Shown here: positions 9,090 through 37,745 of the stretch, one piece after another
How positions within the stretch are numbered: position 1 is the stretch's first letter
Layout: every line of letters begins with the position of its first letter
Source: an uncultured Bacteroidales bacterium
Lineage (GTDB): Bacteria; Bacteroidota; Bacteroidia; Bacteroidales; UBA932
DNA length: 37,898 bases
Reading direction: 5' to 3'
NCBI GenBank assembly: GCA_947588835.1
Contig: CANPZS010000019.1
Location: forward strand, 1-37,898
Translations under genes and position numbers: made by a program
The notes under the pieces: model-generated
What the model saw: the letters and a program-made list of their open reading frames with translations, nothing else
What the model was told of the DNA's origin: nothing
Databases searched by the model: none

Positions 9090-10988
9090 ATGAAAAACGT
9101 TTTGAAAAAATATTTCCCCCTAATGGCCGCGGCCGCGGTGCTGGCGTCGCTCTGCCTGCCGCAGGGCTGCGCGAACACCACTACGCCTCCTTCGGGAGGG
9201 CCAAAGGATACGATACCTCCGGTAATCAGGAAGATAACTCCCCTGCCCGGAGCCGCCGGCGTGAGCGCCAAAAAGACGCGGATCGAATTCACCTTCGACG
9301 AGTATGTGCAGGTCAAGGATCCGAGAAGCCTGTTTCTCTCCCCTCCCGGCGAGAAGCCGCCGAAGTTCAAGATGAAGGGAAAGACCCTCGTAGTGTATTT
9401 CGAAGAAGATCTCGACTCAAACCGCACCCATACGCTCGACCTTACCGGAGCCGTGGCCGACAACAACGAGGGCAACATGTTTCCGGGATACGTTTTCGTT
9501 TTTTCCACGGGCGGCGGAATCGATTCCATGATGGTGACGGGAATAGTGCAGGACTGCAACACCCTAATGCCCGTCAAGGGCGCCACAGTGATGCTGTACA
9601 AGGACCAGTCGGATTCGGCCCTGTTCAAGCATCGCCCGGATGCGGCGGCGCGAACCGACGACTGGGGCTATTTCGCGCTGAGAAATATCCAGGACACGGT
9701 CTACCGGATATATGCCATAGAGGATCAGAACAACAACAACATGTACGATCCCGACAACGAGAGGGTCGCGTTTCTGGACACGTTGTTCCGTCCGGCGAAA
9801 ATGGCGTACGATTCCCTGCCGGAGCTGCTGAAATATGACATGAAAGATACGGCGAACTGCCTTGCAAGGCATCAGGAGCTGGAACTCTCGATGTTCAGGG
9901 AACAGCCTTCACGCCAATACATAGACAATTACGTGCGTACGGGCGAGCGATCCGCCTACGTCACTTTCATGGCGCCCGGCGCGGAGATAAAGGGGATGCG
10001 GATACGAGGCCTTCCGGCCGACAAGCTGATAACCCAGTTCAATCCCGAACGGGACAGTCTCGAACTGTGGGTGAATGACCAGAGGCGCATGCCGGACACG
10101 CTTTACCTGATGGTGAATTACATGAAGACGGATACCTCCGGAGTGCTCGTGCCGACCGAAGAAACCGTTAAGCTGGCCATGGACGCCAAGATGAAGACAT
10201 CGGCCTCCAAAAGCAAATCCTCGGACATAAGGCATGAAGACACCGTATGCGTCATGACGGCCTCCGCGAAGCCAGAGACGGTGGAACAATACGGATTCTC
10301 GCTTGAATTCAAATACCCGCTCATACGGGAGGCCTTCGACAGCCTGCATTTTTACAGCATCAACCCGAGGCAGCAGGAACGCGAAGGCGCCTTCAGGCTG
10401 GTCCGCGACACCGCCAATATCCGCCGTTTCTCCATAATGCCAGAGGAAAAGCTTCTTCCGGGCTGGGAATACATTCTCAAGATACCCCACAGGATGTTCC
10501 AGGACATAAACGGCCATTTCAACGACAGCACGCAGGTCAAGGTGTCGCTGCCGACGGACGAAAAGCTGAGCAGCCTGAACATGATACTTGCCGGGGTGGA
10601 CAGGGAATACATTGTGGAGCTTCTCAATGAAAAACGTTCCGAGGTGCTGCGGAAATACGTGACGGACAGTTCATGTACATTGGCGTTCCCCTATCTCGCG
10701 GCCGGCAAATACTCCGTCCGGATCACCGAGGACCCCAACCGCAACGGAATTGTGGACACCGGCAACCTCCTCGGCAAACGGCAGCCCGAAAAAGCCGTTT
10801 TCTACAAGATAAACGATTCTTTCCTCATAGAGATTCCGGAGAGGTCGGTCATCGACCAAAGGGTGGATATGCAGGTTTTGTTCAACGGAAAAGAAAAGGA
10901 TGACGATGCTGAAGACAATGACGGCGCTCGCGGCGGCGATCCTGATGCTGCAGACACACTGCCTGAAGGCGCAGGAAGTCAGGGCTGA
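9090..10988 (+). CDS. Ig-like domain lipoprotein (Bacteroidetes conserved)
   Basis: This is a predicted surface or periplasmic lipoprotein. A hydrophobic signal peptide (residues 8-24) ends in a lipobox-like LPQGC, with Cys near residue 27, followed by PPSGGPKDTIPP. That lead-in is typical of Bacteroidetes proteins with an N-terminal Big_5-type Ig-like domain (about residues 40-145). A second beta-rich domain follows (VKGATVMLYKD, YFALRNIQDTVYRIYAIEDQ), resembling a carboxypeptidase-regulatory-like fold. The rest is not recognised. ATG 9090 is chosen over a TTG at 9081 that overlaps the rel stop. The last 25 or so residues are acidic low complexity and overlap, in another frame, the signal peptide of the next gene. 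Precise function is unknown. Confidence 0.8.
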   Translation: MKNVLKKYFPLMAAAAVLASLCLPQGCANTTTPPSGGPKDTIPPVIRKITPLPGAAGVSAKKTRIEFTFDEYVQVKDPRSLFLSPPGEKPPKFKMKGKTLVVYFEEDLDSNRTHTLDLTGAVADNNEGNMFPGYVFVFSTGGGIDSMMVTGIVQDCNTLMPVKGATVMLYKDQSDSALFKHRPDAAARTDDWGYFALRNIQDTVYRIYAIEDQNNNNMYDPDNERVAFLDTLFRPAKMAYDSLPELLKYDMKDTANCLARHQELELSMFREQPSRQYIDNYVRTGERSAYVTFMAPGAEIKGMRIRGLPADKLITQFNPERDSLELWVNDQRRMPDTLYLMVNYMKTDTSGVLVPTEETVKLAMDAKMKTSASKSKSSDIRHEDTVCVMTASAKPETVEQYGFSLEFKYPLIREAFDSLHFYSINPRQQEREGAFRLVRDTANIRRFSIMPEEKLLPGWEYILKIPHRMFQDINGHFNDSTQVKVSLPTDEKLSSLNMILAGVDREYIVELLNEKRSEVLRKYVTDSSCTLAFPYLAAGKYSVRITEDPNRNGIVDTGNLLGKRQPEKAVFYKINDSFLIEIPERSVIDQRVDMQVLFNGKEKDDDAEDNDGARGGDPDAADTLPEGAGSQG

Positions 10989-11757
10989 GCGGGATTCGAT
11001 AGTATTTTTCGAACTGCCGGACGAGATCACTGACGAATATCTCGACTCGGCCTATGTATCGAAAAAGACGGTCATAAACAATTATTCCATGATAGGAGTG
11101 GAATACGGGACCACGTTGGTCGGCTCCACCTTCACTCCGACGAGGGACACCAAGGCTTTCATACAGCCCGGACAGTTCGGAGTGCTGTTTACCCACTATG
11201 AGAAAATGTTCGGGATATATCCTTATTTCGGCTATCAGATAGGGATTTACCACGGTTACGAGGGATATCAGTTCAAGGAAAACGAGGAGACAGGCTTCAC
11301 CCCTACAGTGGAGGGAGCCGAAAAAGCCTTGATTGAGGTGGTCGAAGTGCCTTTCCTGCTGCATGCGCACATGGATTCGCACCGGTTTAAGATAATGGCC
11401 GACGTCGGGCTGTACGGCGGCTACAGGCTCGGTATAACGAGATACGGCGACGAGGTAACCGAATCAAGCAGGAACTCATTCATAGACACCGACAAACGTT
11501 TCGACTACGGTCTGAAGGCTTCGGCCGGATTCGGGCTGGTGCTTGACCCTTTGGAGTTTCATTTGACGCTGCAGTTCAAATATGGCTGGAATTCGTATTA
11601 CGCCGCCGACTATTACAGCACGTATTACTACAGATATGCATACCCGTTCAATTTCGTGCTGAGCGCAGGAGTGCATTTCCATCTTACCAAGCGCAGCGGC
11701 TGGTCCAAGGCGCAGCTGAGACGGGAGGCCCGGAGGACGGTTTACGGAGAAGACTGA
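10906..11757 (+). CDS. Outer-membrane beta-barrel protein
   Basis: A signal peptide (MLKTMTALAAAILMLQTHCL, cleavage probably after KAQ) is followed by alternating hydrophobic and aromatic strands (GVLFTHYEKMFGIYPYFGYQ, KIMADVGLYGGYRLGI, LEFHLTLQFKYGWNSYY). The protein ends FNFVLSAGVHFHL plus a basic tail. This is the look of a small PorT-like outer-membrane barrel of Bacteroidetes, but no named member is recognised. Starts at 10900, 10906 or 10918 are all possible. All keep the signal peptide and all overlap the end of the lipoprotein gene by 71-89 bases, which points to translational coupling. It precedes ispG by about 20 bases. Confidence 0.75.
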   Translation: MLKTMTALAAAILMLQTHCLKAQEVRAERDSIVFFELPDEITDEYLDSAYVSKKTVINNYSMIGVEYGTTLVGSTFTPTRDTKAFIQPGQFGVLFTHYEKMFGIYPYFGYQIGIYHGYEGYQFKENEETGFTPTVEGAEKALIEVVEVPFLLHAHMDSHRFKIMADVGLYGGYRLGITRYGDEVTESSRNSFIDTDKRFDYGLKASAGFGLVLDPLEFHLTLQFKYGWNSYYAADYYSTYYYRYAYPFNFVLSAGVHFHLTKRSGWSKAQLRREARRTVYGED

Positions 11758-11778
11758 CAAATAAAACAGGAAACGGAC

Positions 11779-13146
11779 ATGGAAGGAAAGACAAAGACAT
11801 TGCAGGCGTATGTCGGGGATCTGAAGATAGGAGGCGGGGAGCCGATAGTGGTGCAGACAATGTGCAACACCCATACAAGCGACGTGGAGGCGACGGTCGC
11901 GCAGTGCGAACGCCTGCGCGACGCGGGAGCGCAGCTGATACGCATCACCGTGCCGGGGATGCGCGAGGTGGAACACCTCCGCGAGATCCGCTCGCGGCTG
12001 CGCTCCCGCGGTGTCGCGACACCGCTCGTCGCCGACATCCATTTCTCGTCCGAAACCGCCGTCGCGGCCGCGTCGGTCGTGGAAAAGGTCCGCATAAACC
12101 CCGGCAACTTCCATAAAGACCATGACAAGGCCCGCGAGCGTTTCGTCGGCCTGCTGTCCGTGTGCAAGGAGCACGGCACGGCCATAAGGATAGGCCTCAA
12201 CCACGGTTCCCTCGGAGAATACATAACTTCGCTATACGGCGACACCCCGCTCGGCATGGCCAAGGCCGCCATGGAATGGATTGAAATGTGCATCGAAAAC
12301 GACTTCTACAATGTCGTGGTTTCCCTTAAATCCAGCAATACGGCAGTGATGGTGGAGGCCTACCGCACCCTGTACCGCTTCATGCAGGAGCGCGGCGTCC
12401 TGTTTCCGCTGCACGTAGGGGTCACGGAGGCCGGCAACGGCGACTCGGGGCGCATAAAGTCCTGCGTCGGCATCTCGTCCCTGCTCTCAGAGGGCATCGG
12501 CGACACCGTGCGCGTCTCGCTGACCGAGGATCCCGAAAATGAAATTCCCGTGGCGCAATATCTTTCCGACCGCTACGGCAACCGCACCATGTCGTCCCTC
12601 GTATCGGTCAGCACGATCGGGCGCACGGCCATGTCCACATACCGTTCCCCGTCCAAGGAAAAGCTTTTGCTCGATCTGTCGTGCGACTTCGGCAAGCGGC
12701 TTATAAACAAAGACATAGACGACATAAAGATAAACGGAACGTATATTGACGGCAACGGGAACGAAGTGCAGATAGAGAATGAGGGATTCGGCGACTACCT
12801 TGCCGACGAGCTCCTGCAGGCCTGCCGCAGACGTTTCTACCGTCCGGAATACATAGCCTGCCCCGGATGCGGCCGCACCATGTACGATCTGCAGGAAACA
12901 TTCGAGGCAGTAAAGGCCAGGACCTCGCACATGAAAAACGTGGTCATAGCCGTCATGGGCTGCATAGTGAACGGCCCCGGCGAGATGGCCGACGCCGACT
13001 GGGGATATGTCGGAGAAGGGGGCCACAAGGTATCGATTTACCACGAAGGGAAGCCGGTCCTCCGTCACATACCCGACACCGAGGCGGTGGACCGCCTTGT
13101 GGAACTTATTGAGGAAGATCTTGGCCGCCGTCCCGCTTCCCGCTGA
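11779..13146 (+). CDS. ispG: 4-hydroxy-3-methylbut-2-enyl diphosphate synthase IspG, short form
   Basis: Catalyses the penultimate step of the MEP isoprenoid pathway, a reductive conversion of MEcPP to HMBPP that needs a [4Fe-4S] cluster. The TIM-barrel part is complete (VVQTMCNTHTSDVEATV, VADIHFS, KVRINPGN, IGLNHGSLGEY). The cluster ligands are C361 and C364 (CPGC) and C395 (GCIVNGPGE), with the expected Glu in GPGE. The 455-residue length falls between the E. coli type (about 370) and the large forms usual in Bacteroidetes (about 600 and more, with an extra A* domain). Here the segment between barrel and Fe-S domain is only about 94 residues (262-355). The 3' end overlaps the convergent psd gene by 41 bases. 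Confidence 0.92.
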   Translation: MEGKTKTLQAYVGDLKIGGGEPIVVQTMCNTHTSDVEATVAQCERLRDAGAQLIRITVPGMREVEHLREIRSRLRSRGVATPLVADIHFSSETAVAAASVVEKVRINPGNFHKDHDKARERFVGLLSVCKEHGTAIRIGLNHGSLGEYITSLYGDTPLGMAKAAMEWIEMCIENDFYNVVVSLKSSNTAVMVEAYRTLYRFMQERGVLFPLHVGVTEAGNGDSGRIKSCVGISSLLSEGIGDTVRVSLTEDPENEIPVAQYLSDRYGNRTMSSLVSVSTIGRTAMSTYRSPSKEKLLLDLSCDFGKRLINKDIDDIKINGTYIDGNGNEVQIENEGFGDYLADELLQACRRRFYRPEYIACPGCGRTMYDLQETFEAVKARTSHMKNVVIAVMGCIVNGPGEMADADWGYVGEGGHKVSIYHEGKPVLRHIPDTEAVDRLVELIEEDLGRRPASR

Positions 13147-13795
13147 GCACGGCGATCACTGACTCGACCGCACGGACCTTGTCCCCTACCTTGACCTTGA
13201 CCTCGGCATCGAGAGGCAGGAATATGTCTATGCGCGAGCCGAATTTGATGACTCCGCACTGCTCTCCCCTGACCGTCTCCAGCCCGGGCTCCGAATAACA
13301 TACTATCCGCCTTGCGAAAGTGCCGGCGATCTGCTTGAAGAACAGCCTGTCGCCCGAAGGGACTGTGATGCCCGTGGAGGAATGCTCGTTGAGCTCCGAA
13401 GATTTGGGCAGAAAGGCCAGCAGATATTTCCCGGGATGATATTTGTAATATGACACTTCTCCGGAAGCAGGCCAGAAGTTGGCGTGCACGTCAAAGAAAT
13501 CCATGTACACCGATATCTGGATGCATTCTTCCTTCATGTATTCCGGCTCGTAGACTTTTTCCACTATCACCACCTTGCCGTCGCATGCGGAGGTCACAAG
13601 TCCGTCCCCCGGCGGCGTCTCCCTTTCGGGCACCCTGAAAAACCACGTGATGAAGCACATGAACACGACGAGGGCCACGATGATGGAGACCGATATCCAT
13701 GAATTGCGCACAAAATGCCGCACGACCAATATGAGTATGCCGCATATCAGCCATGCCATCAGTATCGTTCCGGTCGAATCTTTATCTATTATCAT
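13106..13795 (-). CDS. psd: Phosphatidylserine decarboxylase (archaeal-type)
   Basis: Converts phosphatidylserine to phosphatidylethanolamine at the inner membrane with a pyruvoyl cofactor made by self-cleavage. Two N-terminal membrane segments (about residues 10-29 and 33-53) are followed by the catalytic domain: PPGDGLVTSACDGKV, SVYMDFFDVHANFWP, and the processing site IKFGSRIDIFLP, with cleavage expected between G186 and S187. The length of 229 residues is usual for the short archaeal-type family found in Bacteroidetes. It is the last gene of rsfS-ftsH-cdsA-psd, starting 12 bases after cdsA. The next enzyme after CdsA in this lipid route would be PssA, which is not in the window. The tail overlaps ispG on the other strand. 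Confidence 0.92.
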   Translation of the reverse strand: MIIDKDSTGTILMAWLICGILILVVRHFVRNSWISVSIIVALVVFMCFITWFFRVPERETPPGDGLVTSACDGKVVIVEKVYEPEYMKEECIQISVYMDFFDVHANFWPASGEVSYYKYHPGKYLLAFLPKSSELNEHSSTGITVPSGDRLFFKQIAGTFARRIVCYSEPGLETVRGEQCGVIKFGSRIDIFLPLDAEVKVKVGDKVRAVESVIAVLSGKRDGGQDLPQ

Positions 13796-27685: not shown

Positions 27686-29107
27686 ATGAGACTGTCCTTA
27701 GACGATACCATAATAGCGCCTGCCACCGTTCCGGGAAGCGGTGCCATAGCCTTGATACGTGTAAGCGGCCCGAAAGCCTTTGAATTTACCGATGCCGTCG
27801 TAAGGTTCAGAAAAGGAAACGCGGCTTCGTCCGAGGGATATTCAATCCATTTCGGCACCGTTTTCACGCAGAACGGCAGGGAGCTCGACGACGTGCTCGT
27901 GAGCATATTCAGAGCGCCGCATTCCTACACGGGTGAAGACTGCACGGAGATAAGCTGCCACGCGTCGAGATACATAACGGGCGAAATAATCCGTCTTTTC
28001 ATAGATGCCGGCGCAAGATATGCCGAACCGGGAGAATTCACGCGGAGAGCCTTCACTGCCGGAAAAATGGATTTGGCGCAGGCCGAAGCCGTGGCTGACT
28101 TGATCGCCGCCGGCACGGAAGCCGCGCACAGGGCGGCATTCATGCAGCTTCGGGGAGGGTTTTCGTCGGAACTGCGGCAGATGCGTTCCGAATTGGTCGA
28201 ACTTGTTTCCCTATTGGAACTCGAGCTGGATTTCAGCGAAGAGGACGTCGAATTCGCCGACAGAGGCCGTCTGAATGCTCTTCTTGACAGCCTTCGGGCC
28301 CATGTCGCCGGACTGACGGATTCATTCCGCCTGGGCAACGCAATCAGAAACGGAGTTCCCGCGGCGATCGTCGGAGCGGCCAATACGGGCAAAAGCACCC
28401 TGTTGAACGCTCTTATAGGCGAGGACAGGGCCATTGTATCGGACATTGCCGGCACGACGAGGGACACCGTGGAGGACACCGTGAATATAGGCGGGATTCT
28501 GTTCAGATTCATCGACACGGCCGGAATCCGGGACACTTCCGATGTCATCGAAAAGCTCGGCATAGAAAGGACTTTCAAGAGGATTTCGGAAGCGGAGATC
28601 ATCCTCGCCGTGCTGGACGCGGATTCGGATGAACATAAGATTTCGGAAGAATGTCGTGAAGTGCTCAGGCATATATCAATCCCCTCCCAAAAGCTCGTTT
28701 TTTTGCTTAACAAGGCCGACATAGCCGACAAAAATCGCTATAACAAAAATGTTATTGCTATAAACAAAATTGTTTTATCAATTGAAAATCAAATAAAAGT
28801 CTTCACTATTTCCGCCAAGACCGGGCAAGGGCTGCCGGAACTGAAAAAACATCTTTCAGACATGGAAAGCCAGTTGATTTCAGATACGGACGCCACCTTC
28901 GTGACCAATTTCAGACATTATCAGGCGCTCGGCGCGGCGGCCCTGTCTCTCGACGAGGCGGCCGCCGCACTCGCCTCCGGCGAGCCGACGGATCTCGTCG
29001 CCGAGCTCCTCCGCGCCGCCCTCTCCCACCTCGGCTCCATCACCGGCGACATCACCACCGACGAAATCCTCGAAACCATCTTTTCCAAATTCTGCGTCGG
29101 AAAGTGA
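27686..29107 (+). CDS. mnmE: tRNA modification GTPase MnmE
   Basis: With MnmG it installs the carboxymethylaminomethyl group on the wobble uridine of certain tRNAs. The folate-binding N-domain (DTIIAPATVPGSGAIALIRV) leads to a helical domain and a G domain inserted in it, with G1 GAANTGKS (230-237), G2 AGTTRD (255-260), G3 DTAG (277-280) and G4 NKAD near 343. The C-terminal signature reads FCVGK, with the functional Cys at 470. The length of 473 residues is normal. It follows rho after 50 bases, a gap holding a TTGTTTAAACAA palindrome but no clear promoter. An AT-rich patch (28731-28812) lies between G4 and G5. It is the last core gene before the defence island. Confidence 0.96.
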   Translation: MRLSLDDTIIAPATVPGSGAIALIRVSGPKAFEFTDAVVRFRKGNAASSEGYSIHFGTVFTQNGRELDDVLVSIFRAPHSYTGEDCTEISCHASRYITGEIIRLFIDAGARYAEPGEFTRRAFTAGKMDLAQAEAVADLIAAGTEAAHRAAFMQLRGGFSSELRQMRSELVELVSLLELELDFSEEDVEFADRGRLNALLDSLRAHVAGLTDSFRLGNAIRNGVPAAIVGAANTGKSTLLNALIGEDRAIVSDIAGTTRDTVEDTVNIGGILFRFIDTAGIRDTSDVIEKLGIERTFKRISEAEIILAVLDADSDEHKISEECREVLRHISIPSQKLVFLLNKADIADKNRYNKNVIAINKIVLSIENQIKVFTISAKTGQGLPELKKHLSDMESQLISDTDATFVTNFRHYQALGAAALSLDEAAAALASGEPTDLVAELLRAALSHLGSITGDITTDEILETIFSKFCVGK

Positions 29108-29461: not shown

Positions 29462-32449
29462 ATGGTTAGTGAAAAACAAATAGAAGAAAACTTTATCAAT
29501 AAATTGATAGAGTTGAAATATACATATCGTTCGGATATTTGCGACAGAAACACACTGGAACAAAATTTCCGCAAAAAATTTGAGCGTCTTAATCATGTCA
29601 ACCTTTCTGATTCTGAATTTAATCGTTTATTAGAAGAAATTACAAACTCTGATGTATATATTTCTTCCAAACGCTTACGTGAAATAAATACGTTTATACG
29701 TGAGGATGGCACACCACTGCAATATACATTAGTCAATATTAAAGATTGGTGCAAAAACGAATACGAGGCAGTCAATCAACTACGTATAAATACTAAAAAC
29801 AGTTTTCAGCGCTACGACGTAATCCTGCTCATCAATGGATTGCCTGTCGTTCAAGTAGAATTGAAAACATTGGATGTAAGCCCACGTCGTGCTATGCAGC
29901 AAATTGTGGATTACAAAAATGATCCAGGTAATGGATATGCAAATACCCTGTTGTGTTTCATGCAATTATTTATTGTCAGCAATTATTCGAACACGTATTA
30001 TTTTGCTAACAATAACCTTCAGCATTTCAATTTTAATGCAGAAGAACAATTCTTGCCAGTCTACCAATGGGCAAGAGATGACAATAAGAAAATAGCCTGT
30101 CTGGATTCTTTTGCCGAACAGTTCCTCCCTAAATGTCATTTAGGCGAAATGATTGGCCGATATATGGTGCTGATAGCCAGTGAACAGAAGTTACTGATTA
30201 TGCGCCCTTATCAGATTTATGCCGTAAAAGCCATTGTAAAGTGTATTGAAGAAAATCGAGGGAATGGTTACATCTGGCATACAACAGGAAGCGGCAAGAC
30301 TTTGACTTCTTTCAAGGCTTCTACTTTATTGAAAGATAACCCAGATATAGAAAAATGTCTGTTTGTGGTAGACCGTAAGGACCTCGACCGACAAACACGA
30401 CAAGAGTTTAATCGCTTTCAGGAGAATTGCGTGGAAGAAAACACCAATACAGTCACATTGGTTCGTCGGATGTTGTCCACCGACCATGCAGATAAAGTGA
30501 TTGTCACAACTATTCAGAAATTGGGTATTGCATTGGATCCTAAGAATCGGAAGAATTATAAAGAACAATTACTGCCATTAAAAGATAGCCGTATTATCTT
30601 TATATTTGATGAATGTCACCGTTCGCAGTTTGGCGATAATCACAAGGCCATAAAGGAATTCTTTCCCCAAGCCCAACTCTTTGGTTTTACCGGGACTCCT
30701 ATTTTTGACAAGAATGCGACCTATACAAAAGTCAATGGAGAAACGGCGTCATATAAAACGACAGATGATATTTTTGAAAAGCAACTGCACGCATATACCA
30801 TAACCAATGCTATCGAAGATAAGAATGTACTTCGTTTCCATGTAGATTATTTCAAACCAGATGATAATAGTCCACGCAGAGCGGATGGCAGCATCAAAAA
30901 ACAGGCCATTGTCGAGACTATTCTGTCTAAGCATGATGCAGCTACCAACCAGAGACGCTTCAATGCCATTCTTGCGACGTCATCCATCAATGATGCCATC
31001 GAATATTACCATTTGTTCAAGCAAATGCAGAAACAGCGAAAGTTAGAAGATAACACATTTGAACCGTTGAATGTAGCTTGTGTATTCTCTCCACCTGCTG
31101 AAGGGAATCCCGATATCACGCAGATTCAGGAAGACTTGCTGCAGGAAAAGATAGACAACGAACAGGAACCCGAGAGGAAGAAACAGGCTTTAAAAGAAAT
31201 CATTGACGATTATAACAAGCAATATGGGACCAACCATGTCATTGAAGAGTTTGATTCTTACTATCAGGATGTCCAGATGCGTATTAAGGACCAAAAATAC
31301 AGCAACAAAGATTATCCTCATGCCAACAAAATAGATATCACCATTGTAGTCGATATGTTGTTGACCGGATTCGACTCGAAGTTCCTCAACACGTTGTATG
31401 TAGATAAAAAACTGATTTATCACCATTTGATACAAGCTTTTTCGCGTACAAACCGAATCTTGAACGATACGAAACCGTACGGGAATATTTTGGATTTCCG
31501 TGATCAACAAAGTGCCGTAGATGAAGCCATAGCTCTGTTTTCTGGTAGCGATAAGGAGGTTGCCAGACGTATATGGCTGGTGGAACCGGTTTCAAGTATC
31601 CAGAAAAAATACAATGAAGCTGTAGCCGGATTACGCAACTTTATGCAGTCATATGATCTTGAGTTCAACGCCTCTGAAGTTGCAAATTTAAAGGGCGACG
31701 AAGCAAAAGTAGGTTTCATTAATCATTTTAAGGAAGTGCAACGTTACAAAACACAGCTTGACCAATATGTTGATTTCTCAGATATTGAAAATACATCTGT
31801 ACTATTAGACCCGCAGTCAGAATATGGTTTTGCAGACGATGACCTTCTTGCCTTCCGAGGGGCTTATCTGAACTTAGCCTATAGCCTGAAGAAACAACGA
31901 GAAAAAACAGCTAAACCGGTTTCTCCTGAGATTGAGGATTTGGACTTTGAGTTTGTACTGTTTGCTTCTGCCATGATTGACTACGACTATATCATGGACC
32001 TTATCGCCAAACAATATGGTGGCACCGGTGTCAAGGTAAAACTGACACGCGAACAGTTGGTGAACATTGTTTTATCGAACTCCAATCTGATGGACGAACG
32101 CGATGACATCATCGCCTATATCAACAGTTTGGAAGAGGTGAACGGCAAAACGGAGCAGGAAATCAAAGAAGGCTACAATCGTTTTAAGACCGAGAGATAT
32201 GCAAAGGAGATTGATTCGATTGCTCGTAGATACGAAATCACCACAGAATCATTAAATGATTTTATCAATGAAATTCTGGATCGGAAGATTTTTGATGCTG
32301 AAAAATTGAACGATCTGCTTGCTCCGCTCAATTTAGGGTGGAAAGCTCGTTCCAAGGTTGAATCAGAATTAATGACGGATTTGATTCCGTTATTAAAACG
32401 TAAAGCAGAAGGAGAAGAAATATCAGGTCTGTCGGCGTATGAAGAATAA
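29462..32449 (+). CDS. hsdR: Type I restriction enzyme, R (motor and nuclease) subunit
   Basis: This subunit translocates DNA and cuts it far from the recognition site when the site is unmethylated. The N-terminal PD-(D/E)xK nuclease has D119 (RYDVILLI) and VELK (E133, K135). The SF2 motor has the Q-like MRPYQIYAV, Walker A TTGSGKT (274-280), DECH at 383-386, FTGTPIF (motif III), and DMLLTGFDS with QAFSRTNR (motifs V and VI). A helical C-terminus probably docks on the methylase. At 995 residues it is intact with no frameshift. It lies between the XRE gene and hsdS, overlapping the latter by 11 bases. The gene order R-S-M, with an extra gene before M, differs from the common M-S-R. Confidence 0.95.
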   Translation: MVSEKQIEENFINKLIELKYTYRSDICDRNTLEQNFRKKFERLNHVNLSDSEFNRLLEEITNSDVYISSKRLREINTFIREDGTPLQYTLVNIKDWCKNEYEAVNQLRINTKNSFQRYDVILLINGLPVVQVELKTLDVSPRRAMQQIVDYKNDPGNGYANTLLCFMQLFIVSNYSNTYYFANNNLQHFNFNAEEQFLPVYQWARDDNKKIACLDSFAEQFLPKCHLGEMIGRYMVLIASEQKLLIMRPYQIYAVKAIVKCIEENRGNGYIWHTTGSGKTLTSFKASTLLKDNPDIEKCLFVVDRKDLDRQTRQEFNRFQENCVEENTNTVTLVRRMLSTDHADKVIVTTIQKLGIALDPKNRKNYKEQLLPLKDSRIIFIFDECHRSQFGDNHKAIKEFFPQAQLFGFTGTPIFDKNATYTKVNGETASYKTTDDIFEKQLHAYTITNAIEDKNVLRFHVDYFKPDDNSPRRADGSIKKQAIVETILSKHDAATNQRRFNAILATSSINDAIEYYHLFKQMQKQRKLEDNTFEPLNVACVFSPPAEGNPDITQIQEDLLQEKIDNEQEPERKKQALKEIIDDYNKQYGTNHVIEEFDSYYQDVQMRIKDQKYSNKDYPHANKIDITIVVDMLLTGFDSKFLNTLYVDKKLIYHHLIQAFSRTNRILNDTKPYGNILDFRDQQSAVDEAIALFSGSDKEVARRIWLVEPVSSIQKKYNEAVAGLRNFMQSYDLEFNASEVANLKGDEAKVGFINHFKEVQRYKTQLDQYVDFSDIENTSVLLDPQSEYGFADDDLLAFRGAYLNLAYSLKKQREKTAKPVSPEIEDLDFEFVLFASAMIDYDYIMDLIAKQYGGTGVKVKLTREQLVNIVLSNSNLMDERDDIIAYINSLEEVNGKTEQEIKEGYNRFKTERYAKEIDSIARRYEITTESLNDFINEILDRKIFDAEKLNDLLAPLNLGWKARSKVESELMTDLIPLLKRKAEGEEISGLSAYEE

Positions 32450-33743
32450 GGATATGGGAAAAAATAATGAAATAAAGACAGTTGTTCCGGTTTTGAGATT
32501 CCCTGAATTTATAAAAACGAAAGGATGGGAAATAATTTTAATCGGTAACATCGGAGAAACCTACGGAGGTTTAACTGGAAAAAACAAAACCGATTTTGGC
32601 TACGGAGAAAAATATGTTACTTATAAGCAAGTGTATAATAATTCATCTGTTAATATTGCTCATTGTGATTTTGTTTGTATTAATAGTTCCGAAAAGCAAA
32701 ACCTTGTAAAATTCGGAGATATTTTGTTCACGCAGTCTTCAGAAACGCCTGAGGAAGTTGGCATATCTTCTGTAATGTTAAATGAAACCAACGAAGCTAT
32801 ATATTTAAATAGTTTTTGTTTTGGGTTACGTCCATTTGATTTAAAAAAGATATCTCCATGTTTCTCTAAATATCTATTTAGAAGTCAAATATTTAGAGAC
32901 AAAATCATTCCCTTAGCACAAGGTATTACACGTTTTAATATATCTCCTACAAAATTTAAGACGATAAAAATACCTATACCAACATCTACTTACAACGATG
33001 AAGAAAATACTGAACAACAAAAAATTGCAGACTGTCTTTCTTCCCTTGATGATTTAATTGAAGCAACAGCCCAAAAAGTTGAAGCATTGAAAGATCATAA
33101 GAAAGGATTGATGCAGCGATTATTTCCTGCGGAAGGAAAGGATGTGCCTGATTTGAGATTCTCGGAATTTCAAGGGATGAAAGGTTGGGAGAAAAAACAA
33201 GTAAAAGATTTCGGAGAAATTATAACAGGAAATACACCAAGCAAAAAAGAAGAAAAATATTGGAATGGAGACTTTGTTTGGGTTACAGCTCAGGATTTTA
33301 AAGGTAAATATATAAATGATTCCATCTTAAAACTGACAAAGTTCGGGAAGGATAAAGCAAGGGTCATTCCAAAAGATTCCGTGTTAGTTACCTGTATTGC
33401 ATCAATTGGCTTAAATGCCATTAATAAGGTCGAATGCTCAACTAACCAACAAATCAACGCAATATGTTGTAATCAAGAGTATAATTACGAATATGTATAT
33501 TATTTGGTAACTTATAATACAAAGAATCTAAAACAGTTGGCTGGTCAAACAGCCGTTCCAATAATAACGAAAAAAAGTTTTGAGGAGTTTGACGTATATG
33601 CAATAAAGAATTATGATGAACAACAAAGGATTGCCGACTGTCTATCTTCTCTTGATGAATTAATAGAGGCAACATCTCGAAAAGTAGAAATATTGAAAGA
33701 TCATAAGAAAGGATTGATGCAAAAATTGTTTCCTAAAATTTAA
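32439..33743 (+). CDS. hsdS: Type I restriction enzyme, S (specificity) subunit
   Basis: Determines the bipartite DNA target of the complex. Two target-recognition domains are seen, residues about 15-190 (FPEFIKTKGWEIILIGNIGE onward) and about 240-395 (FSEFQGMKGWEKKQVKDFGE onward). Each is followed by a nearly identical conserved helix: QQKIADCLSSLDDLIEATAQ in the centre and QQRIADCLSSLDELIEATSR at the end. The duplicated layout matches the circular pseudo-symmetry of HsdS. The 434 residues are complete. The start ATG at 32439 overlaps hsdR; ATG 32454 is an alternative just after its stop. The recognition sequence cannot be deduced. 30-base identical repeats mark the two conserved regions. 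Confidence 0.93.
   Translation: MKNKDMGKNNEIKTVVPVLRFPEFIKTKGWEIILIGNIGETYGGLTGKNKTDFGYGEKYVTYKQVYNNSSVNIAHCDFVCINSSEKQNLVKFGDILFTQSSETPEEVGISSVMLNETNEAIYLNSFCFGLRPFDLKKISPCFSKYLFRSQIFRDKIIPLAQGITRFNISPTKFKTIKIPIPTSTYNDEENTEQQKIADCLSSLDDLIEATAQKVEALKDHKKGLMQRLFPAEGKDVPDLRFSEFQGMKGWEKKQVKDFGEIITGNTPSKKEEKYWNGDFVWVTAQDFKGKYINDSILKLTKFGKDKARVIPKDSVLVTCIASIGLNAINKVECSTNQQINAICCNQEYNYEYVYYLVTYNTKNLKQLAGQTAVPIITKKSFEEFDVYAIKNYDEQQRIADCLSSLDELIEATSRKVEILKDHKKGLMQKLFPKI
33086..33115 (+). repeat. 30-bp direct repeat in hsdS, copy 1
   Basis: The 30 bases starting ATTGAAAGATCATAAG are identical to 33692-33721. They encode LKDHKKGLMQ at the end of the central conserved region, before the second recognition domain. 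Confidence 0.9.
33692..33721 (+). repeat. 30-bp direct repeat in hsdS, copy 2
   Basis: Identical to 33086-33115 and placed at the end of the C-terminal conserved region. The two copies flank the whole second recognition domain (about 580 bases between them), so recombination between them, or with another hsdS, could remove or exchange that domain. Confidence 0.9.
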
Positions 33744-33756
33744 TGTTTATCGGAAT

Positions 33757-34830
33757 ATGGATTTACAACAAATAGCCAGACAAATAAAAGATGCACCAGA
33801 AAATATCTTTTTGATTTATGCATTCAATGCAACTGGTAAAACACGTCTTTCTGTTGAATATAAAGAAACGGCAAGGAACGCGGATGGTCATCAAACAGGA
33901 GTCTATTATAACGCATTCAGTGAAGATTTGTTTGTTTGGGACAATGAACACACAAAGTTGAATATTGTTCCCAGTAGTTTGAACCAATATCATAGTCAAC
34001 TGAATGAGCGAGATGTTATGGAAAAATTGAAGCCTTATAATCCTAAATATGATTTTAGATTTCAAATCCATGACAATCCAGAACAGGGATTTGATTCAAT
34101 ATCTTTCTTTATGAAAGAAGGTGAAGAACAACATCAGGTTAAAATTTCCAGAGGTGAAGAACGTATATTTATATGGTGTTTTTTCTTGGCCTTGTTTGAA
34201 GTGGATGGCTGGACGGGAGAACAAAGTGATTACTTCTTTATTGATGATCCTGTCTCCAGTATGGACGACCATAATATCTTCATTACAGCGTTCACTTTGA
34301 TGAACTTGATAGAAAATCACTATGAAAGGAAGAAAATAATCATCACAACTCATCATATAGGGCTGGCTACCATTCTTAGCGATTGGTTGTCCAAAGGCGA
34401 AAAAGCTAACAAGTTTAAAGCGACCCGACCAGGTGAGAAAAATAAATATAAGATTTCAATTCTTGAAAAGATTGGAGACCAATACGAACTATCCAATCCA
34501 AGAAATAGTGTTTTACTCTATCACTTAAGAGTTCTACAAATATTGGATACAGCTATTCGGGAAGATTCTTTGGAGGTATATCATCTCGCTTTATTAAGAC
34601 AAGTGCTGGAGAATATAGCTTCATTTTTGGGAGTTGGACAAATTCGGTATGTTCTTCAGCAAATTGGATTTTCAGAAGATACTGATAGGATGGCCAATAT
34701 TATTAATGCCTTAACACACCAAAAAGTCTACTATCCACAAGCTGGCGTGATGGTTCCAGATAATAAGCAGATTCTCATAGATGTATATCATGCACTAAAG
34801 GAAAAATATCATTTCGTTTTGCATAATTAA
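33757..34830 (+). CDS. prrC: PrrC-like anticodon nuclease (AAA/ABC-type ATPase plus tRNase domain)
   Basis: PrrC cleaves a tRNA at its anticodon loop. In E. coli it is kept latent by a type I restriction complex and released when phage T4 inactivates that complex. The 357 residues show an ABC-like NTPase: Walker A AFNATGKT (22-29), signature SRGE (131-134), Walker B FFIDD (160-164), D-loop SSMDD (167-171) and H-loop His (199-200). YYNAFSEDLFVWDN (50-63) and KISRGEERIFIW (129-140) match PrrC as I remember it. The C-terminal R281-x3-E285 and H321 fit the PrrC catalytic triad Arg320, Glu324, His356. There is no long coiled coil or zinc hook, which argues against RloC. It sits 13 bases after hsdS and 10 before hsdM; E. 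coli prrC also lies inside its hsd cassette. The family is well supported; activity and the target tRNA are inferred. Confidence 0.82.
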   Translation: MDLQQIARQIKDAPENIFLIYAFNATGKTRLSVEYKETARNADGHQTGVYYNAFSEDLFVWDNEHTKLNIVPSSLNQYHSQLNERDVMEKLKPYNPKYDFRFQIHDNPEQGFDSISFFMKEGEEQHQVKISRGEERIFIWCFFLALFEVDGWTGEQSDYFFIDDPVSSMDDHNIFITAFTLMNLIENHYERKKIIITTHHIGLATILSDWLSKGEKANKFKATRPGEKNKYKISILEKIGDQYELSNPRNSVLLYHLRVLQILDTAIREDSLEVYHLALLRQVLENIASFLGVGQIRYVLQQIGFSEDTDRMANIINALTHQKVYYPQAGVMVPDNKQILIDVYHALKEKYHFVLHN

Positions 34831-34840
34831 ATGTTAGTAT

Positions 34841-36445
34841 ATGACAGCAATAGAACAACATAAATTAGGAAAAGTCCTTTGGGCGATAGCCGATGCATTG
34901 CGAGGCTCCATGATGGCCGATGATTTTCGCGACTATATGCTCTCATTTATCTTCTTACGCTATCTTTCGGAGCAATATGAAGAAGCTGTAAAGAAAGAGT
35001 TGGGAGATGACTACCCAAAATTATCTAACGATGATAAACGAATCCCCTTACAAATATGGTACGACGAGAATCCTGACGATATAACCGAATTCGAGCAGCA
35101 AATGCGCCGTAAGGCCCATTATGTGATACTGCCCAAATACTTGTGGGGTAATATTGTAGAATTAGCTCGTACACAAGACAAAGAATTGCTCGACACATTG
35201 GAAAAAGGATTTAAGTATATCGAGGAACAATCGTTCGACAGTTCGTTTCGTGGATTGTTCTCGGAAATCAATCTGCATTCCGACAAGTTGGGTAAGACAT
35301 ACGAAAAAAGAAACACCATGCTTTGTAAGGTAGTTACGGAAATAGCCAAGGGAATTTCAGAGTTTTCTACCTCAACAGATTCATTGGGAGACGCTTATGA
35401 GTATCTGATTGGTGAGTTCGCGGCTAATTCCGGGCAAAAAGCCGGTGAGTTTTATACCCCTCAAATGATATCTTCTATTCTTTCCAAGATTGTGTCATTG
35501 GACAGCCAAGACCCAACGACAGGTAAGAAGGTAAAGATCGACCGAGTACTTGATTTCGCATGTGGTTCCGGCTCTTTGCTCTTGAATGTACGCCACGAAA
35601 TGGGGAAGCATGGAGTCGGGAAAATTTACGGGCAGGAAAAGAACATTACAACCTACAACTTAGCCCGCATGAACATGTTGCTACATGGAGTCAAGGATAC
35701 TGAGTTTGAAATACATCATGGAGACTCTTTGTTGAATGATTGGGATATCTTAAACGAAATGAACCCTGCCAAAAAAATGCAGTTCGATGCGATTGTTGCC
35801 AACCCTCCTTTCAGTTATCGTTGGGAACCAACCGAGGAAATGGGGAAAGATTTCCGTTTCAAAAATTACGGCCTTGCTCCCAAATCCGCAGCTGATTTTG
35901 CTTTTTTGCTTCATGGGTTCCACTTCTTGCGAGAAGATGGAACAATGGCTATTATCTTGCCTCATGGTGTTTTGTTCAGAGGCGGTAAAGAAGAACTGAT
36001 TCGTAAAAAGCTCTTGAATGATGGCAATATTGACGCAGTTATCGGCTTACCGTCTAATCTATTTTATTCAACAGGCATTCCTGTATGCATCTTGGTTCTG
36101 AAAAAATGCAAGAAGAATGACGATGTTCTCTTCATTAACGCAAGTGAATATTTTGAGAAGGGAAAAAGGCAGAACGCATTGCGTGATTCTGACGTAAATA
36201 GGATTGTAGAAACGTACCAATACAGAAAAGATGTCGAACAATACTCACGTTGTGTATCCATGTGCGAAATCAAAGACAATGATTACAATCTGAATATCTC
36301 CCGCTATGTGAGTACAGCCAAAGAAGAGGCTCCCATTGACTTGGCAGAAGTACATAAGCAGCTTGTTGATATAGACAAGAAAATAGAAAATGCCCGGGAC
36401 AAACATAATGCATTCTTGAAAGAGTTGGGATTGGATTTAATTTGA
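34841..36445 (+). CDS. hsdM: Type I restriction enzyme, M (adenine methylase) subunit
   Basis: Methylates adenine (N6) in the site chosen by HsdS and forms the core of the restriction complex. The N-terminal helical domain (LGKVLWAIADALRGSMMADD, DYMLSFIFLRYLSEQYEEA) is followed by the N6-adenine methylase: EFYTPQMISSIL, AdoMet motif I DFACGSG (238-244), catalytic NPPF (321-324), then ILPHGVLFRGGKEELIRKKL and FYSTGIPVCILVL. It ends in a predicted coiled coil around ELGLDLI. At 534 residues it is intact. It is separated from hsdR and hsdS by the PrrC-like gene and followed 10 bases later by a GIY-YIG gene. Confidence 0.95.
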   Translation: MTAIEQHKLGKVLWAIADALRGSMMADDFRDYMLSFIFLRYLSEQYEEAVKKELGDDYPKLSNDDKRIPLQIWYDENPDDITEFEQQMRRKAHYVILPKYLWGNIVELARTQDKELLDTLEKGFKYIEEQSFDSSFRGLFSEINLHSDKLGKTYEKRNTMLCKVVTEIAKGISEFSTSTDSLGDAYEYLIGEFAANSGQKAGEFYTPQMISSILSKIVSLDSQDPTTGKKVKIDRVLDFACGSGSLLLNVRHEMGKHGVGKIYGQEKNITTYNLARMNMLLHGVKDTEFEIHHGDSLLNDWDILNEMNPAKKMQFDAIVANPPFSYRWEPTEEMGKDFRFKNYGLAPKSAADFAFLLHGFHFLREDGTMAIILPHGVLFRGGKEELIRKKLLNDGNIDAVIGLPSNLFYSTGIPVCILVLKKCKKNDDVLFINASEYFEKGKRQNALRDSDVNRIVETYQYRKDVEQYSRCVSMCEIKDNDYNLNISRYVSTAKEEAPIDLAEVHKQLVDIDKKIENARDKHNAFLKELGLDLI

Positions 36446-36455
36446 TTGTAATAGT

Positions 36456-37283
36456 ATGGGCAAAACAGTAACTACATATCTAATTGATGGAGATCCTAAG
36501 GGGACTCAATATGCGTTTATCAGCAATAAGATTTGCCAGATGTTTGTTGTGCCACGCTCTAATCTTGCATATCTCAATGAGCAAGAGAAACTACAAAAAC
36601 CGGCATTCTATATTCTTATAGGCGAAGATGAGGCAACAAAACCACAGGCTTATATCGGCGAAACTGAAAACTTCAAAGAGCGTGTCAAAGACCATGACAG
36701 CAAAAAGACTTTCTGGCAAAAGGCTCTTATCTTCGTATCAAAGGATGCAGATATGACTAAAGCTGATGTTCAATATTTGGAACATAAAGCAATTGCCGAA
36801 GCAAAGCAAACAAACGCTTTTGTGCTCAATGAAAACAGGCAGACGCCCAAAGCTCCCAATTTGCCCGAATATCAGCGTGATGCAATGGATGAGTTCTTCG
36901 AGGATGTTAAGTTCTTGGCATCGTTCATAGGTTGTAATATCTTTGAGTTAACTAACTTCCATACAGAGCATTTGTTTTACACAAAAGGACGTGGATGTGA
37001 TGCCAAAGGAATTTATGGTTCAAATGGTTTTACTGTTTTAAAAGGCAGCGTGATTGCTAAAACTTCTGTGCCCTCACTAAAGTGGGATAAAAAGCGTACT
37101 AATATAATGCACGAATATGCTGATTTCTCGGAAGACAAGTTGGTAATGACTTCCGATAAGACTTTTGCAAGCCCAAGTACAGCTTCATCATTCTGCCTAG
37201 GTCGTCCATCTAATGGTTGGGCAGACTGGAAGGACAAAGATGGTAACACATTGGATTCTGTGTATAGAAAACAATTAGAGTAG
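36456..37283 (+). CDS. GIY-YIG nuclease family protein with DUF4357 domain
   Basis: This 275-residue protein has a GIY-YIG endonuclease fold with every key position present: Y52 (AFYILIG), Y66-I67-G68 (AYIGET), the catalytic Arg 76 (KERVKDH), the metal-binding Glu 109 (YLEHKAI) and N126 (LNEN). A C-terminal DUF4357-like domain follows (about 235-275: STASSFCLGRPSNGWADWKD), after a linker of about 100 residues that includes GRGCDAKGIYGSNGF. It is probably an active DNA nuclease. It starts 10 bases after hsdM in the same operon, so a role in defence is likely. Whether it adds a second cleavage activity or does something unrelated cannot be told. Confidence 0.85.
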   Translation: MGKTVTTYLIDGDPKGTQYAFISNKICQMFVVPRSNLAYLNEQEKLQKPAFYILIGEDEATKPQAYIGETENFKERVKDHDSKKTFWQKALIFVSKDADMTKADVQYLEHKAIAEAKQTNAFVLNENRQTPKAPNLPEYQRDAMDEFFEDVKFLASFIGCNIFELTNFHTEHLFYTKGRGCDAKGIYGSNGFTVLKGSVIAKTSVPSLKWDKKRTNIMHEYADFSEDKLVMTSDKTFASPSTASSFCLGRPSNGWADWKDKDGNTLDSVYRKQLE

Positions 37284-37301: not shown

Positions 37302-37745
37302 ATGAGTAATATTCTATATAAATATCTTGATATCAATGGCGCAAAGTGCATGATTGGAAACCAAAATCTCCTATTCACTAATGTCTCTCAGTTAAACGAC
37401 CCGTTTGATTGTCATCCTAAATTAATTGACTACTCAAATGTTCCGGAGAGTAAACTTCAAGGATGGGTACCTAAAGAATGGTGGATGAAGAAAGAGGAAA
37501 ATGATGCTCTTAATTTGCGTAATGAAACTTGGCTCTGTAGTCTGTCAAAGGTTTATGATTCATTGCTTATGTGGAGCCATTACTGTTATAACCACAAAGG
37601 TGTTTGCATAGGACTTGATATCGATAAAGTGATACAATCGGTACCTCCAATGTTTGGTACAATATATCTTAAACCGTTTGTTATTGAAGTTCAATACAGA
37701 AATGTTGCCGGTAGCGGGATTGACGTGCCGGCGGTAGCGCAATAG
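37302..37745 (+). pseudogene. DUF2971 protein, truncated by an insertion
   Basis: The start matches the DUF2971 family: ILYKYLDINGAKCM, LLFTNVSQLNDPFDCHPKL, WLCSLSKVYDSLLMWSHYCY, NHKGVCIGLDID, and then KPFVIEVQYR. At about residue 134 the family likeness ends. The frame continues as NVAGSGIDVPAVAQ through GC-rich repeat DNA to a stop at 37743. DUF2971 proteins are usually longer, so the C-terminal half has been separated by the inserted element, whose other end lies outside the window. The gene was the seventh of the island operon, 18 bases after the GIY-YIG gene. The biochemical role of the family is not known. Confidence 0.8.

Follow-up and report, generated by a model that had tools for sequence, protein, structure and literature searches.

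A type I restriction operon on the forward strand, with the gene order hsdR-hsdS-prrC-hsdM-GIY-DUF2971, closes the stretch of DNA analysed here (the window, 37,898 bp, which is contig CANPZS010000019.1 of assembly GCA_947588835.1 from an uncultured Bacteroidales bacterium). Our subject is the fifth of these genes, which encodes a protein with a GIY-YIG domain followed by a DUF4357 domain. Judged from its sequence, this protein is a real, functional-looking accessory nuclease. The features of the locus are listed below (aa, amino acids; ORF, open reading frame; E, expectation value).

29462-32449, + strand: hsdR, type I restriction subunit, 995 aa (Pfam HSDR_N, SWI2_SNF2, T1R_D3-like and EcoR124_C; TIGR00348; PADLOC REase_I)
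32439-33743, + strand: hsdS, specificity subunit with two target-recognition domains, 434 aa (Pfam Methylase_S in two stretches; PADLOC Specificity_I)
33757-34830, + strand: PrrC-like anticodon-nuclease guard, 357 aa, with an ATPase and an RxxxE...H motif (R281, E285, H321) (PADLOC PrrC, E 1.6e-98)
34841-36445, + strand: hsdM, adenine-N6 methyltransferase, 534 aa (Pfam N6_Mtase and HsdM_N; TIGR00497 above cut-off)
36456-37283, + strand: predicted GIY-YIG/DUF4357 nuclease, 275 aa, ATG start (ORF; Pfam; PADLOC PDC-S14, E 7.8e-82)
36603-36839, + strand: predicted GIY-YIG catalytic domain, residues 50-128 (Y52, Y66, R76, H80, E109, N127) (Pfam, alignment, fold matches to 2lwf and 1yd6)
36942-37280, + strand: C-terminal domain, residues 163-275, predicted RAMA/SAND-like fold, including DUF4357 (226-266) (Pfam; model)
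37302-37745, + strand: DUF2971 gene, shortened, 147 aa against 253 aa in the related locus L039 (Pfam; PADLOC candidate defence family PDC-S31)

The hsdR, hsdS (with both target-recognition domains) and hsdM genes are all intact according to Pfam together with TIGRFAM or PADLOC, so this is a type I restriction-modification locus. The nuclease ORF begins 10 bp past the hsdM stop (36445) and has DUF4357 attached, as the first-pass annotation of this DNA had described and as the ORF call and Pfam confirm. DUF4357, at residues 226-266, scores above its Pfam cut-off (E 9.7e-16). The Pfam GIY-YIG match over residues 51-113 reached 21.9 bits against a cut-off of 22.6 when the protein was scanned singly (E 2.1e-4) and 24.1 bits, which exceeds that cut-off, in the search of the genome, making the protein a match to the GIY-YIG superfamily. 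It is also a member of PDC-S14, a phage-defence candidate in PADLOC, with residues 2-271 aligning to positions 16-296 of the 301 in the model (E 7.8e-82), and it is the only match to the family in the window's genome.

The active-site positions are Y52, Y66, R76, E109 and N127, which we take to be the catalytic set. Four of them had been named correctly in the first-pass annotation, but the asparagine was off by one, since residue 126 is a glutamate. Y52, Y66, R76 and E109 are invariant in 116/116 aligned relatives and N127 is found in 115/116 (74 + 6 + 21 + 15 proteins, each of at least 255 aa, with at least one protein, shared by L105 and L163, counted twice). For close pairs of nuclease genes (117 pairs), the ratio of nonsynonymous to synonymous substitution rates (dN/dS) has a median of 0.028. 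Among the restriction genes the medians are 0.043 for HsdM (7 pairs), 0.033 for HsdR (1 pair) and 0.362 for HsdS (1 pair), and among other neighbours they are 0.112 for Schlafen-like genes (6 pairs) and 0.158 for a gene of 243 aa (15 pairs). These groups for comparison contain few pairs, dS is high at about 0.9, and the pairs overlap and are not independent. The nuclease gene is clearly under very strong purifying selection, and with a median dN/dS of about 0.03 the conservation of these residues is not a matter of chance.

The AlphaFold2 model of the whole protein, built from 46 sequences, has a predicted local distance difference test score (pLDDT) of 89 and a predicted template modelling score (pTM) of 0.62, and because of the latter value the arrangement of the domains is uncertain. 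In a second-look structure comparison, the N-terminal part matches 2lwf (Z 8.0, 95 residues), which we take to be a GIY-YIG domain. It also matches the GIY-YIG domain of UvrC, 1yd6 (Z 5.5, 84 residues), so that the predicted fold is that of GIY-YIG. Searching the PDB with the single nuclease sequence gave no match, and a PDB profile search gave just SLX1 at E 0.41 and an unrelated match at E 0.31.

When the C-terminal domain was modelled alone (residues 163-275, 44 sequences), the model reached a pLDDT of 89.4 and a pTM of 0.81. Its best match is the MPND-DNA complex 7ydw (Z 5.6, 71 residues, 3.1 Å), the second is the SAND domain of Sp100b (Z 4.2), and the following row has Z 2.6. The matched stretch of MPND sits within the RAMA domain, which a passage of PMC9963953 places at residues 32-163, and at the same place in our protein the Pfam RAMA profile gives a match below its cut-off (E 3.8e-5, 24.0 bits against 35.2). 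We call this predicted domain RAMA-like or RAMA/SAND-like and do not assign it as a member of RAMA, the Z score of 5.6 being modest though well above the unrelated rows. MPND binds double-stranded DNA with no sequence preference and no effect of N6-methyladenine (m6A or 6mA), according to passages of PMC9963953, which also cite an earlier study that reported 6mA-selective binding. If the fold prediction is right, a RAMA/SAND-like DNA-binding domain would be a testable structural hypothesis for DUF4357, a domain that is also present in homologues of type IV enzymes.

We examined the neighbours of this gene in several sets of loci, with neighbourhood profiles that had genes of the window itself as seeds. 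The 80 close-relative loci are the best-scoring of at least 522 relatives; they are near the window and mostly Bacteroidota by record title. Plasmids are represented by 15 records hand-chosen from 48 for genus spread. In an even draw across the phylum, 31/392 genomes were positive, the window's included, and 23 of the other 30 loci were fetched; seven genomes with weak or partial matches were excluded. On viral contigs a single-sequence scan found none and an alignment-based scan found seven loci, one of which is the same as plasmid locus L163, and phage records gave two matches. The sets of loci overlap in other ways, since both protein and gene order are identical between L105 and L163 and likewise between L066 and L172, and further pairs share the end of the protein.

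Among the close relatives, 42/80 loci have a match to some hsd profile, and as two of these are type III systems we labelled 40/80 as type I; hsdM was found in 34/80. In the 58 loci with at least 5 kb of upstream DNA and an ORF of at least 240 aa, a restriction-modification partner is present in 46, type I in 33 of those. Genes of the hsd type were also found in 4/8 loci from the 200 nearest genomes, in 11/15 plasmid records and in 4/7 viral contigs. With the same profiles we found hsd genes in 0/20 control loci, which are hand-picked loci of other GIY-YIG proteins (UvrC-sized and small ones) from the window's relatives, not from plasmids, four of the 20 having less than 14 kb of sequence. Against these controls, Fisher tests gave p 1e-5 for 40/80, p 3e-6 for 11/15 and p 0.003 for 4/8.

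In the phylum-wide draw an hsd profile matched in 7/23 loci (p 0.01 against the same controls), including L184, which has partial HsdR and HsdS ORFs, and L178, where hsdM is 5.5 kb distant; hsdM was found in just 4/23. As a rough base rate, we estimate from 118 HsdM_N matches in 200 relatives and an assumed genome of 3 Mb that about 0.4% of random genes would have such a match within 10 kb, and compared with this estimate 4/23 would have p 2e-6. The enrichment near restriction genes that the first-pass annotation proposed to look for is thus strong in the window's own branch and in the sampled plasmids, but weaker across the phylum.

The position of the gene with respect to these neighbours bears on two other explanations. 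One is that the protein is an independent anti-phage nuclease that co-travels with restriction systems in defence islands, with no joint action, which we regard as doubtful. Its position is not loose in the close relatives, where the next upstream gene of any kind is on the same strand in 68/80 loci with a median gap of 16 bp (53/68 within 60 bp), and in 35/40 type I loci the nearest hsd gene is also on the same strand. In 8/15 plasmid loci, which come from Actinomycetota and Pseudomonadota, the gene has hsd genes on both sides and is thus inside a type I operon, and in seven of those eight the nuclease ORF overlaps the preceding gene by 1-8 bases. What speaks for mere co-travel is that copies without hsd genes are the majority of the phylum-wide sample, that the ORF alone is shared between unrelated neighbourhoods (see below), that the gene also adjoins EcoRI-methylase, type III and Schlafen-type genes, and that PADLOC lists the family as a single-gene candidate.

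The other explanation is that the protein belongs to the type I enzyme itself, as an additional subunit that binds HsdM, HsdS or HsdR. The same plasmid loci, with the gene inside the operon and mostly in overlapping ORFs, are what such a subunit would look like, but proteins with 90% or more identity to each other are found with partners of type I, type III and D12 type, so that a specific interface is hard to accommodate, and copies without hsd genes exist. The first-pass annotation had called the gene an accessory of a type I system. That description fits the copies inside type I operons in two phyla, but the association is not specific to type I, as it extends to type III, IIB-like and EcoRI-methylase systems. 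For this reason, and given the common hsd-free copies and the near-identical copies with unrelated neighbours, we consider a fixed subunit of the restriction complex very unlikely.

An adenine-type partner was labelled in 55/80 close-relative loci (type I 40, type III 5, EcoRI type 8, D12 2), with two doubtful labels, L027 (EcoRI type) and L077 (which has a 1309-aa HsdS-like ORF). A C5-methyltransferase motif, searched as a motif and not as a profile, was found in 1/80 loci (L061, which is also labelled type I). Among the 200 relatives, C5 methyltransferases occur in 62 genomes and are nearly as widespread as HsdM_N, which occurs in 79. We do not read this bias toward adenine over cytosine partners as proof of m6A sensing, because it may reflect only the fact that m6A is the mark made by systems of types I, IIB and III.

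Half of the type I loci (20/40) have no match to an HsdR profile, some of them near contig ends, and we considered whether the GIY-YIG protein replaces HsdR in such systems. This idea was rejected, as both of the loci scanned among these 20 (L033 and L071) have an HSDR_N_2 domain fused to the methyltransferase and so keep a restriction nuclease domain. We liken this fusion to BcgI, a type IIB enzyme.

By parsimony, a tree of 75 proteins needs 19 changes of partner class, with 'none found' counted as a class, whereas shuffled labels average 25.3 changes, so partners are partly inherited and often changed. This is a quick tree that omits six loci with an ORF of less than 240 aa, and 35/71 of its inner branches have support below 80; if the starred branches are taken by themselves, fewer changes are required (6 for type I, 5 for none and 2 for each of the others). 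We also compared flanking DNA in pairs of nuclease genes with at least 1.5 kb of flank on each side, pairs that are not mutually independent. The proteins of 162 such pairs reach 90% identity; in 116 of these (35 loci), similarity of the DNA extends no more than 60 bp beyond either end of the ORF, and in a further 36/162 it stops this early on one side. Loss of the shared flank on both sides was seen in 0/7 HsdM pairs. In L021 and L024, one example of several, the downstream genes are common to both loci and the restriction genes are not. Since near-identical copies mostly have no common flanks, the unit that is kept is often the single gene.

GIY-YIG is a classical fold of homing nucleases, and together with the sharing of a single ORF this could suggest a homing-type or otherwise selfish gene. 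Homing, however, keeps the flanks of the target site, and the 116/162 pairs without a common flank do not show the pattern of a homing endonuclease. The placement behind restriction genes and the dN/dS of 0.028 also point to a protein that is useful to the host, and we find a selfish origin scarcely credible.

Our preferred reading, to which we give a probability of roughly 40%, is that the protein is a predicted accessory DNA nuclease that is exchangeable between, and made together with, adenine-methylating restriction-modification operons. The layer of evidence under this reading consists of what sequence and model show, namely an apparently intact GIY-YIG active site with a predicted RAMA/SAND-like domain, the linkage, the sharing of the ORF alone and the purifying selection. 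In such a scheme, the nuclease would be produced together with the restriction system, the RAMA-like domain would hold the enzyme on double-stranded DNA without reading its sequence, and the GIY-YIG domain would make a further cut in invading DNA, whether the restriction complex had engaged this DNA, had cleaved it or had left it undestroyed. The scheme would not rely on close contact with one particular Hsd subunit, and a tight contact of this kind is unlikely because an almost identical protein serves unrelated systems. Copies without a restriction neighbour persist, so the safety of the host seems not to depend on a neighbouring methyltransferase, and some trigger must therefore exist. A near-constant nuclease gene amid changing restriction systems is unusual, and would allow a simple test of whether a second nuclease is used by restriction systems. 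The study of accessory genes in type I operons, prrC among them, has already revealed how bacteria guard their restriction systems.

Several of our results weigh against this reading. Across the phylum, 16/23 copies show no hsd gene (12/19 when at least 14 kb of DNA is available), and in two of the seven loci that do, L170 and L182, the sole match is a single HsdR-like ORF of some 540 aa. The count of hsdM (4/23) is not significantly different from the controls (0/20; Fisher p 0.11), and this low count lowers the weight that we give to an accessory of restriction operons and raises that of a co-travelling nuclease. In 12/58 close relatives with enough upstream DNA no partner was detected, and these copies together with the 16/23 across the phylum indicate that a restriction operon is not required. 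Linkage alone is no proof of joint action, because defence genes cluster anyway. The structural match to RAMA has a modest Z score, and Foldseek found nothing in the PDB at E 0.001 or below with either the whole model or the C-terminal domain. A survey of P. aeruginosa found PDC-S14 to be slightly more common in phage-susceptible strains (57% of 14), as reported in a passage of PMC10855318. Finally, the occurrence of DUF4357 in GmrSD homologues (in a passage of PMC4619093, which also describes the pairing of GIY-YIG with DUF4357) and among the listed stand-ins for McrB (in a passage of PMC11090510) points instead to a reader of modified DNA.

This last point leads to a type IV-like nuclease, in which the DUF4357/RAMA-like domain would read a modified base in phage DNA and the GIY-YIG domain would cut, covering phages whose modification blocks the neighbouring system. 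The first-pass annotation had likewise suggested that the nuclease might attack modified DNA or, as its other idea, might work on what restriction leaves behind. Passages of PMC11037411 raise GIY-YIG-RAMA fusions as possible 6mA readers and describe some m6A-dependent or m6A-toxic nucleases that adjoin EcoRI-like or type I methyltransferases. The DUF4357 domains in type IV homologues and the 6mA-reader proposal speak for such an enzyme, and the hsd-free copies show that hosts survive without a neighbouring methyltransferase. If the modified base were m6A, however, we would expect carriers to avoid other m6A methyltransferases, and D12-class enzymes are present in 11/27 carrier genomes and in 36/80 genomes of the phylum (p 0.8; the 27 are a subset of carriers and seven of them are also among the 80, so the two sets overlap). 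The window's own genome has three good D12 matches, and the binding of MPND was unaffected by 6mA in the study cited above, against the earlier report of selective binding. Because the gene is often beside m6A methyltransferases and the D12 class is equally common in carriers, m6A is an unlikely trigger. We see a type IV-like enzyme as improbable.

A further reading is a general accessory nuclease for adenine-methylating systems (types I, IIB-like and III and some of type II), a highly conserved protein gained as a single ORF. It would attack invading DNA a second time, and its RAMA-like domain would sense the state in which the partner methyltransferase leaves the DNA, for example by sparing m6A DNA, without any protein contact. 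We hold this to be unlikely.

In comparing the exchangeable accessory nuclease of our preferred reading with known systems, the closest match is PADLOC family PDC-S14, which covers nearly the full length of the window protein. The entry as shown is a single-gene candidate with no description, and it mentions neither the RAMA-like tail nor a link to operons of type I, type III or the IIB-like kind. A passage of PMC10855318 states that PDC-S14 overlaps GAO_29, seemingly a restriction-like system. The GIY-YIG proteins with DUF4357 of PMC4619093 have the same two-domain plan as the window protein, and the GIY-YIG-RAMA fusions of PMC11037411, compared by description, have a similar one; the passages concerned in these two papers do not associate them with restriction operons. 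In the passage of PMC11037411, the enzymes that were characterised as m6A-dependent are winged-helix-GIY-YIG proteins. GmrSD homologues and McrB-type (type IV) proteins have DUF4357 in common with the window protein, which has no Pfam match to a GmrSD or McrB domain. The E. coli anti-phage proteins PD-T4-3 and PD-lambda-1 also have a GIY-YIG domain, according to a table entry of PMC10952713, and neither is among the PADLOC matches of the window protein (E 1e-3 or below). A passage of PMC4420470 describes a Lactococcus plasmid with a GIY-YIG gene beside hsdS, for which restriction or homing was suggested. Our searches of open-access literature turned up no description of the link to restriction operons, of the sharing of this gene by itself or of the fold of the part that holds DUF4357. 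What is new here is the modular association with restriction operons and the placement of the window gene in the family, while the PDC-S14 family and the domain pair were already known.

The operon of the window contains two more genes that were absent from the first-pass annotation, the PrrC-like gene and the shortened DUF2971 gene. In the PrrC-like protein, R281, E285 and H321 are present in 6/6 aligned proteins, the window's included, as in a PrrC anticodon nuclease, and we take these residues to be the nuclease triad; a PDB search with this protein gave no match. Apart from one or two extra ORFs, L039, L045, L060 and the Prosthecochloris locus L160 have the same gene order as the window, PrrC included, and in L039 it is accompanied by a full-length DUF2971 gene. 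The EcoprrI-type locus, with type IC hsd genes and an embedded prrC according to a passage of PMC12707154, has the combination of a type I system and a PrrC-like guard in common with the window. The window differs in adding the GIY-YIG nuclease and the DUF2971 gene, and its prrC lies between hsdS and hsdM. We infer that the operon may be layered, with restriction by HsdRSM, a PrrC-like guard against inhibitors of restriction and a predicted second nuclease.

Behind the DUF2971 gene (37302-37745), the sequence up to 37898 has a short near-repeat (caatagaNtgtgcc). The final 77 bases of the window are identical to the start of another contig of the same genome (C60), so there is a repeat at the contig end. 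Upstream of the operon, at 27686-29107, is a gene that is presumably MnmE-like. Two other genomes have a homologue of this gene a short way upstream of their GIY-YIG gene (L064:8565-9917 and L035:7702-9090), so this may be a common insertion site for defence genes.

We noted several unusual neighbours of the nuclease gene in the related loci. In L021 and L039, a single ORF of 156 aa, at 9528-9998 in both, separates the GIY-YIG gene from the restriction genes; its copy in L039 matched nothing in Pfam or PADLOC. The operons of L033, L037 and L083 consist of an HSDR_N-methyltransferase fusion, HsdS, a TIR protein, a protein of 603-630 aa and the GIY-YIG gene. In L033, which we scanned, the fusion was checked, the TIR protein is spbK-like and the protein of the 603-630 aa class has no Pfam or PADLOC match. 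In L044, L052 and L085, a gene for a protein of roughly 1,200 aa comes after a type III system and before the GIY-YIG gene, and the protein that we scanned, from L085, has a Dsr2/ThsA-like match. L087 has an odd combination of NACHT and bacterial sugar transferase domains in a 926-aa ORF (10948-13725) that adjoins the GIY-YIG gene. In L188 (contig C40 of genome G414) there are five consecutive matches to the family profile, several of them C-terminal only and two sharing a 542-aa frame with the main match, and from its sequence this locus is an apparent series of repeated DUF4357-like segments.
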